A stretch of 53,702 bases of DNA from Candidatus Portnoyibacteriota bacterium (lineage in GTDB: Bacteria > Patescibacteriota > Minisyncoccia > Portnoybacterales > GWB1-42-6). The stretch is taken from NCBI GenBank assembly GCA_028688325.1, contig JAQTYI010000001.1:366620-420321 (forward strand). The letters run 5' to 3'. Positions 29,173-50,784 of this stretch are shown one piece after another. The translations under genes and the position numbers were made by a program. Within the stretch, counting starts at the first letter, position 1, and each line of letters opens with the position of its first letter. The notes beneath the pieces were generated by a model. The model was not told the DNA's origin. It made no database searches and saw only the letters and a program-made list of their open reading frames with translations.

Positions 29173-29213
29173 GCGATAATATTCGTGATATCTGATATCA
29201 CGAATATTATCGC
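29173..29213. repeat. Perfect 19-bp-arm palindrome over the dprA stop
   Basis: GCGATAATATTCGTGATAT, CTG, then its exact complement. The dprA stop codon lies inside. Its central 21 bp also occur, reverse-complemented, inside pheT (6991). Confidence 0.85.
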
Positions 29214-30304
29214 GCCAGGACATATTGCATGCCGCCCAGGTTTTTGATTTTTCCTTTCATTTCCATAATGCTCAATGTTGCGTTAACAACGGCTGCGCTC
29301 ATTTTTGTTTCTTGGACTATCAGATCCACCGGCAAGGGGTCATGAGATAAAATTTTTAAAATGGATTCTTCTTCCGGATTGTCGGGTGCGATCTTGGCGA
29401 CGGCGATGTTTGAGGCCAGATTTTGCAGATTCAGCTCTTCCAAGATGTCTTGCGCGCAAACAGCCAGCTTGGCGCCGTTCTTTATTAGGGAATTGGGCCC
29501 GGTTGATTTGTCGGAAAATATGGAGCCGGGCACTGCAAAGACCTCGCGGTTTTGCGATAGAGCAGAATTGGCGGTGATCATGGCGCCGGATTTTTGCGGT
29601 GCCTCAACCACCAGCGTGCCCAGCGACAAGCCGCTCACGATGCGGTTGCGGGCGGGGAAGTGGTGCGGCAGGGCGGCTGAGCCCATGGGATATTCGGAGA
29701 GCACTGCGCCGTTTTGCGCGATTTTTTCCGCCAAAGATTTGTTCTGGGCCGGAAAAATACTGAAGCGGTCGATGGATGAACCAAGCACTGCGATGGTGCG
29801 TGTTTTTTGTTCCAGCGCCGCCAGATGCGCCAAAGTATCAATTCCCAAGGCCAGCCCGGAAACGATGGTGAGTCCCGCTTGCGCTAGTTCTCGCGAGAGG
29901 CATGTCGTAACTTGCTGGCCGTAGGTTGATAATTTTCTTGTACCGACCACCGCAATCGCAAATTCATCTTCCTGTTTCAATTCGCCCTTGATGTACATTA
30001 TATGTGGCGGGTCGTATATTTCTTTTAAGAGCTTGGGATAATCTTCGTCCAAAATAGTTATGATGCCGATATTTTCTTTATCGAGTTTGGCCAATTCTTT
30101 TTCCAAATCTATTTGCGGCCGGCGCACCGCAATCTCTTGCGCCAGATCTTCTTCCAGCCCCGCCAAAACAAAATCCTGCTGCGAGCCGTTTTTCCAGGCC
30201 TGCTCCAGAGAACCAAAATACCCCAGCAGTTTTTTAAAACGCATGGGGCCGATGCGTTCGTTGAAAAGGTTGAAGGCGTGGAAATATTTGGCCTGGGGGT
30301 GCAT
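29207..30304 (-). CDS. dprA: DNA processing protein DprA
   Basis: The protein has 365 residues. DprA loads RecA on incoming single-stranded DNA during transformation. A SAM/HhH-like N-terminus (RIGPMRFKKLLGYFGSLEQ) precedes the Rossmann domain with AVVGTRKLSTYGQQVT, SGLALGIDTLAH, AVLGSSID and the conserved PARNRIVSGLS. The C-terminal DML1-like winged helix ends GGMQYVLAR. ATG 30304 is chosen; upstream codons come from the flanking repeat. With comEC it supports a DNA uptake ability. Confidence 0.94.
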   Translation of the reverse strand: MHPQAKYFHAFNLFNERIGPMRFKKLLGYFGSLEQAWKNGSQQDFVLAGLEEDLAQEIAVRRPQIDLEKELAKLDKENIGIITILDEDYPKLLKEIYDPPHIMYIKGELKQEDEFAIAVVGTRKLSTYGQQVTTCLSRELAQAGLTIVSGLALGIDTLAHLAALEQKTRTIAVLGSSIDRFSIFPAQNKSLAEKIAQNGAVLSEYPMGSAALPHHFPARNRIVSGLSLGTLVVEAPQKSGAMITANSALSQNREVFAVPGSIFSDKSTGPNSLIKNGAKLAVCAQDILEELNLQNLASNIAVAKIAPDNPEEESILKILSHDPLPVDLIVQETKMSAAVVNATLSIMEMKGKIKNLGGMQYVLAR

Positions 30305-30354
30305 AATGCTTTTCGTTCTCTTTTGCGCCGGCAAAAGAGAACCAGAAAAACTCC

Positions 30355-30542: not shown

Positions 30543-32804
30543 CTAAATTAGGTTTTTGATTTCTTCCACCGATTCGCTTAGCATCTGCATATACAAATTC
30601 AATCCGATAGAGTTGACTGGACCGCTTTGCTCGCGGCCCAAAACATTGCCCGCGCCGCGGATCTCAAGGTCGCGCAGGGCGACTTGGTAGCCCGAGCCCA
30701 GCGCTTCGGCTTCCTGCAGCGCCTCCAGGCGCGAGCGCGCGTCGTCGGTTAAATTCTTGCTGTTATATAGAAAGTAGGCGAAGGCCTGCTGATGCGAACG
30801 GCCCACGCGCCCGCGCAATTGGTAGGCCTGAGCCAGACCCAGGCGCGTGGCATTGGCGACAATGAGTGTATTAACATTGGGAAAGTCCAGGCCATTCTCA
30901 ATAATTGTTGTGGCCACTAAAATATGGATTTTTTTGGCGTCAAAATCATCCATTATTTTTATTAATTGTTTTTCATGCATTCGGCCGTGGATGACGGCGA
31001 TTTTTACATCGCATTCTTTTTTGTCATTCTGAGGCCCCGCATCAGAGTGCGGGGTAAACTCCGCCGAAGAATCTATAGACTTCGTTGCGCGGGTCGCCGC
31101 TCGCTTCGTCTTCGACGAGTCGAAGCGGGCGCTCCCGCGAGATCCTTCGCTTTGCTCAGGATGACAGAAGTTTTGTGAAAGCATCTTTTGGAGTTGCCGA
31201 GCGGCCAGTCCCATGGTTTCCACGCGATTGTGCAGATAATAAACCTGGCCGCCGCGAGCTAATTCTTTGGCGATGGCATTGGCAACGGTTTTCTTATTGA
31301 ACTGCTCAACGAAAGTTTTTATTGGAAGCCGCCCTGGCGGAGGAGTCGAGATGATGGAAATGTCGCGCAGGCCCGAGAGCGTCAGATTCAGAGTGCGGGG
31401 AATGGGCGTGGCGGAGAGAGAAAGGATATCAATCGCGTGTGATGGAAAATTTATTCCCTGAGCAAGTCCCGAGATAGAGTCGAAGGACGCGTCGAAAGGT
31501 TCGGCCTTCGACTTCGCTTCGCCACGCTCAGGCAATAAATTGGGTCGTCGCAATCCATTGAATATTTCTTTCTGCTTCACGCCGAATCTCTGCTCTTCAT
31601 CGATTATGGCCAGACCCAGGTTTTTGAACTGGATGTCTTTTGACAACAGGCGATGTGTGCCTATTAGAATATCTATTTTTCCATCGCCGACTTCTTTGAT
31701 TATTTTTTTCTGTTCATTTTTTGACTGCAGGCGCGTGAGCAGGGCGACACGCACGGGAAATTTTGCCAGGCGATGAGAAAAATTGTGCCAATGCTGGTTG
31801 GCTAAAATGGTTGTTGGCGCCAGCACCGCCACTTGTTTGCCTGCCTCCGCCGCTTTGAAGGCCGCCCGCAACGCCACCTCGGTTTTGCCAAAACCCACAT
31901 CCCCGCAAATCAGCCGGTCCATCGGTTTTGGCGACTCCATATCGGCCAAAACTTGCGCGATGGCGCGGGCCTGATCATCGGTTTCAATATAAGGAAAATC
32001 TCCGGCCAGCTCTTTTTCCCATTGGTCGGCGGCCGGATACTCAAAACCCCGCGCGGCGGCGCGCTGGCCGTAAAGGGCTAACAGTTCTTTGGCCAGCTCC
32101 AGCGAATTGGCTTTGGCTTGCCGTTTTGTTTTCAGCCACAGCGCACCGCCCAGGCGATGGACTGCGGGCGTTTCAAAGCCGATGTAGCGCGACAATTTTT
32201 CTTCCTTATCCAGCGGAACATATAATTTATCGCCTTTGGCATATTCCAGCACAAAAAGCTTTTCCGGCGAATTCTCGTTTGGCGCGGACAAGGAAATTAC
32301 GCCGCCGGGTCTTTCAACAAATCCCGCAAAACGCCCGATGCCGTGATCCAGGTGCACCAGATAATCGCCCGGCCGCAAACCGAAAAGCAATGAGGCATTG
32401 CCCCGGCTCGATAATTCTTTTTTGACTTGTTTTTCGGTTTTTAATTCTTTGACCGCCAAAAAGTCGATGGCGGAAATCTTGTTGCCGGAAAATTCCAGAC
32501 GCCAGGCGTGAGCGGAATTGATGGGGAATATTTCCACGATTCCGCCCCGGTGCGCGAAGTCGCCCGGCGCGCCGATGGTTTGGACTTTGTTGTAGCCAAG
32601 TTCGGTGAATTGGCGCAATAGCGCAAAAAGATTTATTTGCAGGTCTTTCTCCAAAAACAGCGTGTTGGTTTTCCACCAGATCTGTGTTTGGGCGGCTTTT
32701 TTTATTTTTTGCCAATTTTGCTCATACCACAAAACGCCCCGTTCTAAAAAATAGGGGGTGATGCCGGCGATAAGGATTTCGGATTGTTTATTCGGCTGGG
32801 TCAT
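30543..32804 (-). CDS. mfd: Transcription-repair coupling factor, shortened
   Basis: Mfd removes stalled RNA polymerase and recruits UvrA. 753 residues against about 1150 in the usual protein. The N-terminus is a remnant of the UvrB-like region, followed by the polymerase-interacting domain (RPGDYLVHLDHGIGRFAGF) and the RecG-like translocase: GDVGFGKTEVALRAAFKA, DEEQRFGVKQKE, SATPIPRTL, LRGRVGRS. It ends at YMQMLSESVEEI, lacking the C-terminal inhibitory D7 domain. Two repeat-derived inserts (about 75 residues in all) lie between helicase motifs. Confidence 0.92.
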   Translation of the reverse strand: MTQPNKQSEILIAGITPYFLERGVLWYEQNWQKIKKAAQTQIWWKTNTLFLEKDLQINLFALLRQFTELGYNKVQTIGAPGDFAHRGGIVEIFPINSAHAWRLEFSGNKISAIDFLAVKELKTEKQVKKELSSRGNASLLFGLRPGDYLVHLDHGIGRFAGFVERPGGVISLSAPNENSPEKLFVLEYAKGDKLYVPLDKEEKLSRYIGFETPAVHRLGGALWLKTKRQAKANSLELAKELLALYGQRAAARGFEYPAADQWEKELAGDFPYIETDDQARAIAQVLADMESPKPMDRLICGDVGFGKTEVALRAAFKAAEAGKQVAVLAPTTILANQHWHNFSHRLAKFPVRVALLTRLQSKNEQKKIIKEVGDGKIDILIGTHRLLSKDIQFKNLGLAIIDEEQRFGVKQKEIFNGLRRPNLLPERGEAKSKAEPFDASFDSISGLAQGINFPSHAIDILSLSATPIPRTLNLTLSGLRDISIISTPPPGRLPIKTFVEQFNKKTVANAIAKELARGGQVYYLHNRVETMGLAARQLQKMLSQNFCHPEQSEGSRGSARFDSSKTKRAATRATKSIDSSAEFTPHSDAGPQNDKKECDVKIAVIHGRMHEKQLIKIMDDFDAKKIHILVATTIIENGLDFPNVNTLIVANATRLGLAQAYQLRGRVGRSHQQAFAYFLYNSKNLTDDARSRLEALQEAEALGSGYQVALRDLEIRGAGNVLGREQSGPVNSIGLNLYMQMLSESVEEIKNLI
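31021..31170. repeat. GTCATTCTGAG-type repeat inside mfd
   Basis: From TTGTCATTCTGAGGCCCC to TGCTCAGGATGACAGAAG, about 150 bp in frame. It encodes the low-complexity insert starting FCHPEQSEGSRGSARFDSS and ending AGPQNDKK. Confidence 0.85.
31460..31530. repeat. Second repeat inside mfd
   Basis: GAGATAGAGTCGAAGGACGC to CTTCGCCACGCTCAGGC is a shorter palindrome-like insert encoding PERGEAKSKAEPFDASFDSI between helicase motifs III and IV. Confidence 0.7.
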
Positions 32805-32835
32805 TACATAAAATTTATTTTATGGTTATTTCCTT

Positions 32836-32912
32836 TTCCCCCTTTGTAAAGGGGAATTAAGGGGGATTTAAATCCCTCCCAACCTCCCTTTAAAAAGGGA
32901 GGAGTAAAAAGC
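32836..32912. repeat. C/G-rich palindromic repeats upstream of mfd
   Basis: CCCCCTTTGTAAAGGGGAAT with TTAAGGGGG, then TCCCTCCCAACCTCCC with AAAAAGGGAGGAG: two family C units in a row. Confidence 0.8.
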
Positions 32913-33028: not shown

Positions 33029-33430
33029 ATGAAAAAGAGAAAGTTGTGGCACATCTATGTTGGCGTGGCGTTGGTTCTCGCCGGAATTTTAATCGGGCAT
33101 GTCGAGAGTAATTTTGCCGCGGTATCCCAATTGGTCAGCTTTCTCGGCGGTCTGGAAATCGCTTACGCGGTTTTCCATCGTTACCGCAAACCGATCATAA
33201 GCTGGGGAGAGCGCATAGCGTGGGCCGTGTCGGGAATCGTGATGTTCTTGGTCGGGCTTTGTTTTCTTTTTGCATCGTCCATCAGGATAACGGAGATTCA
33301 AACCGCGCCGATGGCGCCCGTTTGGTACCTCGGAATTATCCCTGCCGTGATTCTTGGCGCCACCGCCTTGTTTGTCGGTCTTCAGTTTATGGGATGGGGG
33401 GTTACCGGTCGCCCCTTGCTGGGAAAGTAA
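33029..33430 (+). CDS. Small membrane protein, unknown
   Basis: The protein has 133 residues with four likely membrane helices (about residues 8-25, 30-48, 62-84 and 100-122) and charged loops. A strong AAGGAGGAG site precedes the ATG. No family is recognised. It has its own strong promoter and is followed by a hairpin (GAGGGAAC/GTTCCCTC) without a T-run. Confidence 0.75.
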   Translation: MKKRKLWHIYVGVALVLAGILIGHVESNFAAVSQLVSFLGGLEIAYAVFHRYRKPIISWGERIAWAVSGIVMFLVGLCFLFASSIRITEIQTAPMAPVWYLGIIPAVILGATALFVGLQFMGWGVTGRPLLGK

Positions 33431-33506: not shown

Positions 33507-33625
33507 TTGACCCCGTATAGAAGTTCGGCCGCGCTTGGCTAACTGACGCGCAAGAGGGCGATCCGCTTTCGGCTTCATTTTGCGAAGATAGCGTTTTTAT
33601 TTGAAAACTTTCAACGGGGTTGACT
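33507..33625. repeat. Family E repeat with outward -35 box, copy 1
   Basis: GCGCTTGACCCCGTATAGAA on the left and AACTTTCAACGGGGTTGACT on the right. The related copy is at 41738-41865. The right end supplies the TTGACT -35 of the next promoter. Apart from this element the gap 33431-33650 holds only the small hairpin 33441-33459. Confidence 0.75.
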
Positions 33626-33648
33626 TCCTGTAAGGTCTGAATGATAAT
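33620..33648 (+). promoter_or_regulatory. Promoter of the structured leader and small membrane operon
   Basis: TTGACT (33620-33625), 17-bp spacer, GATAAT (33643-33648). The -35 lies at the edge of the family E repeat. Confidence 0.7.
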
Positions 33649-33654
33649 ACAATA

Positions 33655-33857
33655 TCAATCAAGCGGTGTCAAAAGCACTTTAAAAACAAGTGATTCGCCC
33701 GGAATCCTATCTGTGAGTGGCGAACGCCCAAGCAATCCCTCCTAAGTCTTGGGCTAATAACCGTGAGTTCAAGGATTGCGCCTTTTGGTGTGACTCTTTG
33801 ACGCTCGCAGGTAGGATTTCGGGCAAATTGCAAAAAAATCACAAAGGAGGCGGCTAT
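33655..33857 (+). promoter_or_regulatory. Large structured leader RNA, possible riboswitch
   Basis: A 21-bp closing stem joins 33697-33717 and 33804-33824, every position pairing if G-U pairs are allowed. Inside, GCCCAAG (33726) pairs with CTTGGGC (33748), and CAATCC in that loop can pair with GGATTG (33773), forming a pseudoknot. A ribosome site AAAGGAGG follows at 33842, just past the stem. No known riboswitch or ribozyme class is recognised. An in-frame extension of the next gene into this region is rejected. Confidence 0.6.
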
Positions 33858-34085
33858 ATGGATAAGTCATATAAGATGTTTTGTCTGGCCATGGCGGCCA
33901 TTGCAGCGATGATGTTATCGTCCTGGGATGGGCCGTATGACGCATCCCAGTGGGGATTGCTTTTGTTTTTTAGCGGATTATCCTTTGGATTTCTTATCCT
34001 CTGGATACGCGCCAGATGGACAAGGGCTCGGAATAATAAACTTGATATATTCCACGAGGGTCATGGACAAAAAAGGAGGATATGA
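33858..34085 (+). CDS. Small membrane protein downstream of structured leader
   Basis: 75 residues with two hydrophobic segments (about 6-22 and 31-48) and a basic C-terminal tail. AAAGGAGG stands 9 bases before ATG 33858. The stop overlaps the next start (ATGA), so the two are translationally coupled. Unknown family. Confidence 0.7.
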   Translation: MDKSYKMFCLAMAAIAAMMLSSWDGPYDASQWGLLLFFSGLSFGFLILWIRARWTRARNNKLDIFHEGHGQKRRI

Positions 34086-34303
34086 AGATGCGAAGAAGAA
34101 TCAAAGCGTTTTTCCATTCGGAAGGCAATCGGACAAAAAAGTGCGTGATTTTTCTTGGCTTGTTTTCCACTTCGCTGGCGCTTATCGCTCTGACGATATA
34201 TGAGCCGCCCAACTGGCAGAACATCGCGGTTGCGTGCGCCAGTTTTTATCTGGCTCTCGCCGCGCTTTTGGCAATAGTCAGAGGACAGCCGTTGGAATTT
34301 TAA
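34082..34303 (+). CDS. Small membrane protein, coupled second gene
   Basis: 73 residues with two hydrophobic helices (about 21-39 and 45-65) and a basic N-terminus MKMRRRIKAFF. AAAAGGAGG lies within the end of the previous gene. A terminator follows 27 bp after the stop. The pair forms a two-gene unit under the structured leader. Unknown function. Confidence 0.7.
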   Translation: MKMRRRIKAFFHSEGNRTKKCVIFLGLFSTSLALIALTIYEPPNWQNIAVACASFYLALAALLAIVRGQPLEF

Positions 34304-34375: not shown

Positions 34376-34969
34376 TTAGTTGAACCGGTTCTGCGCGCCG
34401 GCCGGGCCTTTTTCCAAAATCAGCAGGATAGCTTCTTCGGTTTTCGCAGTGGCTTGCTGAACGAGCGTTTTTTCTTCCTCGCTGAACTTTTGCAGGACGA
34501 ATTTTTCGGCCGGGGTGAACTTCTTGAAAAACTTGGCCAGGAAAGTCTGCTTAGCCGGCTTAATGCCCAGGCGCACCCGCAAGAAGTTTTTTGTGCCCAG
34601 CTTCTCGATTATGCTTTGCACGCCTTTATGTCCGGCGGCGCCGGAATTTTGGCTGACGCGGATATCGCCCAAAGGCAGGTCCAGGTCGTCGTGCAAGAGC
34701 AAGATATCGTCCGGGCCGAGCTTGTAGAAATCCGCGATCAATTTTGCGGCTTGGCCGGAATTATTCATAAAGGTTTGGGGCTTGGCCAATAAAATTTTTT
34801 CTCCGTCAATTTGCCCCTCGCTGATCATCGCTTTAAACTTTTCGTTCGCTTGCCAGTCGGAAAAACCCGGGAGCGAATCCTGCAGAAAATTGGCCGCCAG
34901 AAAACCGAAGTTGTGGCGGGTGTTGAAATATTGGGGGCCGGGATTGCCTAATCCTATAATAAGTTTCAT
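34376..34969 (-). CDS. pth: Peptidyl-tRNA hydrolase
   Basis: Frees tRNA from prematurely released peptidyl-tRNA. 197 residues, the usual length. KLIIGLGNPGPQYFNTRHNFG contains the catalytic His, followed by KPQTFMNNSGQA and LLHDDLDLPLGDIRVSQNSGAAGHKG. The start ATG 34969 gives the canonical MKLIIGLGNPG; codons upstream are flank. Confidence 0.96.
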   Translation of the reverse strand: MKLIIGLGNPGPQYFNTRHNFGFLAANFLQDSLPGFSDWQANEKFKAMISEGQIDGEKILLAKPQTFMNNSGQAAKLIADFYKLGPDDILLLHDDLDLPLGDIRVSQNSGAAGHKGVQSIIEKLGTKNFLRVRLGIKPAKQTFLAKFFKKFTPAEKFVLQKFSEEEKTLVQQATAKTEEAILLILEKGPAGAQNRFN

Positions 34970-35020
34970 AATTTTTATCCTTCTTTTCTGTAACCAGAAA
35001 AGAAGCAAAAGAGTTTTCTT

Positions 35021-50568: not shown

Positions 50569-50574
50569 ATGGTC

Positions 50575-50784
50575 GGCTTTGCTGTGCAAGGGCTTCTTCA
50601 TATAATTTTGGATCAAATAAGAATTTCAGGGAGCCCTATTATTGGGCAAGTTCGCTGATTCGTTCGGGAATTTGCTTTGCGGGCACCCACTTGGAAACAA
50701 GCCGAAATTCATAAGAAGCTCTTGGCAGTTGAGGCCGTTTTAGGCAAACAAAAAACCGTCCCGTAAAGCGGGGCGGTTTTTTTA
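50575..50784 (+). ncRNA. Structured non-coding RNA, possibly 6S RNA
   Basis: About 200 bases between a good promoter and a terminator with no gene. A long end-to-end stem forms: CAAGGGCTTCTT pairs with AAGAAGCTCTTG, extended by CTG/CAG and CGGC/GCCG. Inside are GAATTTC/GAAATTC, GCCC/GGGC, GCAAGTTC/GAATTTGC and a GAAA-capped CTTG/CAAG hairpin. One long rod with an internal open region fits 6S RNA, which holds RNA polymerase. tmRNA, RNase P and SRP signatures were not seen. The 6S call is tentative. Confidence 0.5.
50751..50784. terminator. Terminator of the structured RNA
   Basis: ACCGTCCCG/CGGGGCGGT stem with one G-U pair and loop TAAAG, then TTTTTTT. It also faces the flavodoxin gene from the other side. 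Confidence 0.85.

Follow-up and report, generated by a model that had tools for sequence, protein, structure and literature searches.

A conserved structured RNA of Patescibacteria with an exposed anti-Shine-Dalgarno loop, a candidate regulator of translation

What is the large folded RNA that lies at positions 33655-33857 of this window, and does it belong to the small genes that follow it or stand on its own? The window, that is, the whole stretch of 53,702 nucleotides that was analysed, comes from a genome of 911 kb, estimated to be 100% complete, whose named relatives are Patescibacteria (CPR). These tiny bacteria make up a huge and mostly uncultured share of the bacterial tree and have minimal genomes. 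To our knowledge, very little has been established about their gene regulation. The original prediction had described here a metabolite-sensing leader of a membrane operon, closed by a long stem with G-U pairs as its only exceptions. Structure is certainly present: the 203-nt stretch has a folding energy of -78.8 kcal/mol where shuffles give -52.1 +/- 3.95 (z -6.75), and none of the 200 shuffles folded as well. The stem is there too, as an unbroken 22-bp helix (P1, 33697-33718 with 33803-33824) in which all non-Watson-Crick pairs are G-U. Its sequence is nearly palindromic, and the predicted GCCCAAG hairpin, paired with CTTGGGC, sits inside it. The elements of the RNA are the following:

33696..33825, + strand: core of the non-coding RNA (covariance-model match over 133 positions, 110.3 bits with R2)
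33697..33718, + strand: 5' strand of helix P1, from the predicted fold
33719..33721, + strand: 5' strand of the short helix P2, pairing with 33760-33762
33722..33725, + strand: conserved internal loop, 5' side, GAAC in the window and GAAA in the consensus
33726..33754, + strand: hairpin P3, which presents the loop (33726-33733 with 33747-33754)
33737..33743, + strand: CCCUCCU loop, a copy of the 16S rRNA anti-Shine-Dalgarno core
33755..33759, + strand: conserved internal loop, 3' side, TAATA in the window and GAGUA in the consensus
33760..33762, + strand: 3' strand of helix P2, pairing with 33719-33721; in the window genome its third pair, C-A, does not form
33769..33801, + strand: second arm, P4/P5, with a U-rich loop (33769-33774 with 33796-33801; 33778-33781 with 33788-33791)
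33803..33824, + strand: 3' strand of helix P1, from the predicted fold

Searching by DNA sequence alone was enough to detect the RNA in 8 relatives belonging to the same family and order; two further weak matches (L013 and L015) were not homologs. Aligned in corrected orientation, the eight sequences match over the whole core, and their MAFFT alignment already contains double-sided changes at 25 of the 44 pairs. The covariance model built from them was run on 383 genomes of the class and detected homologs in 44. Rebuilt models found them in 42, then 40, of 379 genomes sampled phylum-wide, mostly from families outside the class. There is one locus per carrier genome; the site being palindromic, its reverse strand accounts for the extra matches. 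In the resulting set of 79 sequences, double-sided changes were seen at all 44 base pairs, including 23/23 modelled pairs of P1 (with 94.9% of its cells paired), 8/8 of P3 and 10/10 of P4/P5, so that the compensatory changes the original prediction proposed to look for are present throughout the structure. Standard pairs occupied 93.9% of the cells against 38-46% in slid controls; fitting the alignment to the structure of the model introduces a bias in favour, but the effect exceeds the controls by far and is already visible in the MAFFT alignment. Two copies carry inserts: in L026 of genome G007 (positions 1501-1681) an insert of about 50 nt between the P3 and P4 arms folds as extra hairpins, and L192 of genome G015 has a longer insert still.

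A DNA pattern scan gave 17 true matches, and all of those with a named lineage were Patescibacteria; among the matches outside the phylum, none fitted the covariance model at the pattern site. We re-examined the negatives by fetching the pth locus for 26 of 30 genomes scored as lacking the RNA. In two of them the RNA or a divergent form of it was next to pth: G015 (L192, 49.4 bits) and G079 (L207, 28.9 bits, which escaped the genome scans and came to light through the pth neighbourhood only). As these two proved to be carriers, the counts given above are lower bounds. Several other negatives of the same order had pth missing from the assembly or at a contig end, and in the remaining re-examined ones no copy adjoined pth. 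True absence is common. About nine tenths of the sampled genomes of the phylum were without a match, so the RNA is not essential for the lifestyle.

Conservation is distributed in an unusual way along the molecule. The stems vary in sequence while their pairing persists, and sequence is kept in the P3 loop and in the internal loop. The latter has column counts, out of 79, of G61 A75 A72 A66 on one side and A66 G54 U71 A74 on the other, and presumably resembles a bulged-G/loop-E motif (GAAA/GAGUA). The P3 loop has the consensus A-U-C-C-C-U-C-C-U-A/U. Its CCUCCU, found in 79 of 79 homologs, lies within AUCCCUCCUA, which closely resembles the 3' tail of 16S rRNA, AUCACCUCCUU. The 16S rRNA of the window genome itself ends in the canonical GGATCACCTCCTTTCT, so the loop is an imitation of the tail minus one base, the missing one being the A between AUC and CCUCC. 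The likeness reaches beyond CCUCCU, the preceding positions being A in 71/79, U in 59/79 and C in 77/79 sequences. Covariance models could favour members that retain the loop, and the counter-check is provided by the copies found beside pth: the divergent L207 bears AAATCCCTCCTTTT at the expected place, including AAATCCCTCCTTT, and L192 likewise keeps the CCUCCU loop. Judged from the aligned sequences, conservation is highest in an exposed anti-Shine-Dalgarno (anti-SD) loop and not in a core resembling a ligand pocket. A pseudoknot had also been proposed, between CAATCC and GGATTG. These are complementary in the window genome and a few relatives, and the GG of GGATTG doubles as 5' strand of the covarying helix P4. 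Over the 79 homologs the best pairing of that loop averages 3.49 pairs against 3.42 in shuffles, and the pseudoknot is a local coincidence or a lineage feature.

The surroundings of the RNA tell which part of the locus is maintained. The relevant features are:

29207-30334: dprA, beyond mfd
30543..32804, - strand: mfd (transcription-repair coupling factor), divergent neighbour conserved in this clade
33620..33648, + strand: sigma-70-like promoter of the RNA (TTGACT, 17 nt, GATAAT), with transcription start predicted near 33655
33843..33850, + strand: ribosome site AAAGGAGG ahead of the 75-aa ORF, a feature that is not conserved
33858..34085, + strand: 75-aa small membrane-like protein with no significant family assignment; its presence beside the RNA is not conserved
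34082..34303, + strand: 73-aa small membrane-like protein of no significant family, its start overlapping the stop of the 75-aa ORF
34376..35008, - strand: pth (peptidyl-tRNA hydrolase, by Pfam), conserved convergent neighbour

An exact TTGACA with a -10 box at 16-18 nt was located just upstream of the RNA in 56 of 72 loci, where dinucleotide shuffles predict 0.4. The gene order is also stable: with neighbour families confirmed by Pfam, the RNA is convergent with pth in 69/73 loci and divergent from dprA or mfd in 64/73. In 48 of the 73 loci the RNA is followed by a gene of the opposite strand (almost always pth), with no same-strand ORF of at least 60 aa between the RNA and that convergent gene, so in these genomes there is no gene for the RNA to lead. 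The conserved unit is 33696-33825 plus the promoter at 33620-33648, and the downstream genes form no conserved part of it. As read from sequence, the RNA is a single-copy stand-alone gene, at 33655-33825 of the window, and in most genomes not a leader. The homologs expected in relatives do exist, as stand-alone RNAs instead of the leaders they were expected to be. How transcription ends is less uniform: a T run of at least 4 follows P1 within 25 nt in 25 of 73 loci, and P1 itself may act as the terminator in some of them (e.g. L023, L050 and L207), not as a general rule. A strong promoter-like site in the opposite direction (TTGACA, 17 nt, TATTAT; 33672-33644, - strand) lies inside the 5' part of the transcript. 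Between mfd and the RNA the window also encodes a 133-aa membrane-like protein of no significant family (33029-33430, + strand). Between mfd and the next gene there are two adjoining inverted repeats of the CCCCCTTTGTAAAGGGG / CCTCCCTTTAAAAAGGGAGG type (32835-32910), perhaps a mobile repeat element.

The RNA probably controls which messages get translated. With confidence only a little above even, we favour a stand-alone riboregulator that would offer its anti-SD loop to the start sites of mRNAs. A strong housekeeping promoter would make the RNA, and the long closing helix with its two arms would give it a rigid, stable fold. One arm, backed by the conserved GAAA/AGUA internal loop, would hold exposed the AUCCCUCCUA that copies the 16S anti-SD end. 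This loop could then pair with the Shine-Dalgarno (SD) sites (AGGAGG) of mRNAs and block or reprogram translation initiation in trans. The loop might also work in cis within this clade, at the ribosome site belonging to the small membrane genes, which lie downstream by chance. Pairing calculations are compatible with this scheme and at the same time do not single out any message. Translation starts pairing at -8 kcal/mol or better were found for 29% of genes with the loop and 27% with the 16S tail, against 10% for gene interiors, a test that is partly circular since start codons are picked with preference for SD sites. The base before AGGAG in the SD sites of the window genome was A in 55 cases and T in 7. 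With A so favoured, it is the 16S tail that the SD sites match, and not the flanks of the loop itself. No loop-specific mRNA target stood out in the window genome; extended matches were too few and gave no enrichment (TAGGAGGGAT occurs 5 times).

There is prior evidence of small RNAs working in this manner. The 'cuckoo' sRNAs of Rhizobiales, alpha-r14/NfeR1, are likewise encoded by a stand-alone gene and have an invariant anti-SD loop motif on variable stems; they have been tested and silence mRNA at the ribosome site, whereas we infer this mode for the RNA described here (PMC10746234, PMC3927594). In NfeR1/alpha-r14 the invariant motif of the loops is CCUCCUCCC, and silencing occurs by its pairing at the ribosome site (PMC10746234). 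The hallmark of such sRNAs, a near-invariant exposed motif over variable stems, is found here in the CCUCCU of every homolog. The architecture is different: alpha-r14/NfeR1 have three hairpins, each with CCUCCUCCC, no long closing helix, and belong to another phylum, whereas our RNA carries CCUCCU in a single loop, is closed by a helix of 22 bp, adds a second arm and an internal loop that is presumably loop-E-like, and has no sequence or Rfam match to them. In cyanobacteria, Yfr1 and Yfr10 are likewise phylum-wide small RNAs with a conserved UCCU-containing motif that regulate in trans; mutation of the UCCU abolishes mRNA binding, and the synteny of Yfr1 is conserved as it is for the RNA here, although the same study doubts SD blocking as a general cyanobacterial mode (PMC6778093). 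Again in this case the architecture is unlike ours: the motif lies between two stem-loops in Yfr1 and in a loop atop a stem in Yfr10, and here it is the apical loop of P3 inside the long closing helix of a non-cyanobacterial RNA. We likely deal with a new RNA family, in which the anti-SD loop mode is of a known kind but the architecture and the phylum are new.

For a plain antisense loop, a rigid fold of 130 nt would be more than is required, and this may point to a protein partner. The main rival to the riboregulator starts from such a partner. The RNA would be a decoy of the 16S rRNA 3' tail, its AUCCCUCCUA imitating AUCACCUCCUU and being bound by a tail-reading factor (Era, KsgA, bS21 or bS1 are candidates), and would tune ribosome assembly or initiation. 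We regard this as rather unlikely. The extension of the 16S likeness to the AUC before CCUCCU speaks in its favour, as do the elaborate scaffold with its conserved internal loop and the fact that SD sites fit the loop's flanks no better than the 16S tail. On the other hand, the loop lacks one A of the tail, the decoy is without a known protein partner, and SD pairing by itself could account for the invariant CCUCCU. The parallel would be 6S RNA, which imitates a promoter. 6S RNA (RF00013) is also widespread and structured and imitates the nucleic-acid target of a core machine, a conceptual parallel only, as its fold and motif are unrelated to those of the RNA here. A broader proposal is that this undescribed family of Patescibacteria is a rigid-scaffold copy of the 16S anti-SD tail and exerts global control over the initiation of translation or the maturation of ribosomes; we put it forward tentatively, at clearly less than even confidence. 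If true, it would be the translation counterpart of 6S RNA and a rare regulator shared by the group, with a fixed locus and a strong promoter, giving a testable handle on translation control in Patescibacteria.

Somewhat less probable than the decoy is a structural RNA that is tied to the ribosome or to translation and has a different role (binding of the small subunit, hibernation, or partnership with Pth in recycling), for which the loop would be a docking site. The almost fixed pth neighbour, the strong promoter and the large conserved fold agree with it, but the gene order around pth dates far back and could have been retained without any function, and the convergent orientation leaves no co-transcription with pth.

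A cis-acting leader of the small membrane operon, either a riboswitch or an SD-sequestering element, was close to the original prediction and we now consider it improbable. Much of what had been described is found in the window: a good ribosome site near the structure (ahead of the 75-aa ORF) and two coupled small membrane-like proteins, neither of which reaches the Pfam cut-off (the 75-aa ORF had no relative in a protein search of the genome contigs). The loop is calculated to pair with this ribosome site at -10.7 kcal/mol (-13.0 for the 16S tail). In family f1 a same-strand ORF is present a short way downstream at 6 of 7 loci, usually behind an SD site, and since in the window's family such followers are often small membrane proteins the impression of a leader is easily explained. 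Actually, a same-strand gene follows the RNA in 25 loci, and from genome to genome these genes show no relationship: much of f1 has small membrane proteins in this place, G002 has a soluble protein, and still other genes occur elsewhere. Neither a terminator/anti-terminator nor the pseudoknot is conserved. As a general function the cis leader is refuted by the 48 loci with a convergent next gene. A metabolite riboswitch was rejected by position on the same count, and by shared downstream pathway since the same-strand ORFs differ; riboswitch leaders are alike in size and degree of structure, and the RNA here is followed by no constant gene, in most cases by none.

The prediction that the RNA fits no known class has stood. 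At the gathering threshold, Rfam 15 gave no match over the RNA in the window and 20 diverse homologous loci; a permissive search up to E 5 gave chance matches only, and we found no paper on a structured RNA of Patescibacteria in the open-access literature. Substantial RNA families can thus still escape Rfam, perhaps through poor coverage of CPR genomes. That it is a divergent form of a known housekeeping RNA (tmRNA, RNase P RNA, 6S or SRP RNA) we hold to be extremely improbable: SRP RNA was indeed not found in the window genome, but neither was it in 32 other carriers, separate tmRNA, RNase P RNA and 6S genes exist elsewhere in the same genome, the RNA has no SRP domain IV motif, and the 20 diverse loci gave no covariance-model match to such families. 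An SRP RNA identity was rejected with no match to RF00169 or RF01854 and a negative Ffh/FtsY test, SRP GTPases being essentially absent from carriers and non-carriers alike. Many CPR bacteria lack two SRP subunits (PMC8080830). The SRP system seems absent from G000 and 35 other Patescibacteria, with no SRP RNA (RF00169, RF01854) in G000 and only marginal PF00448 matches in the set, one of them (G004) just over the cut-off. Finally, a 6S RNA gene is located within the window itself, at 50571-50741 on the + strand, with 49.4 bits, just over the Rfam gathering score of 46.4.
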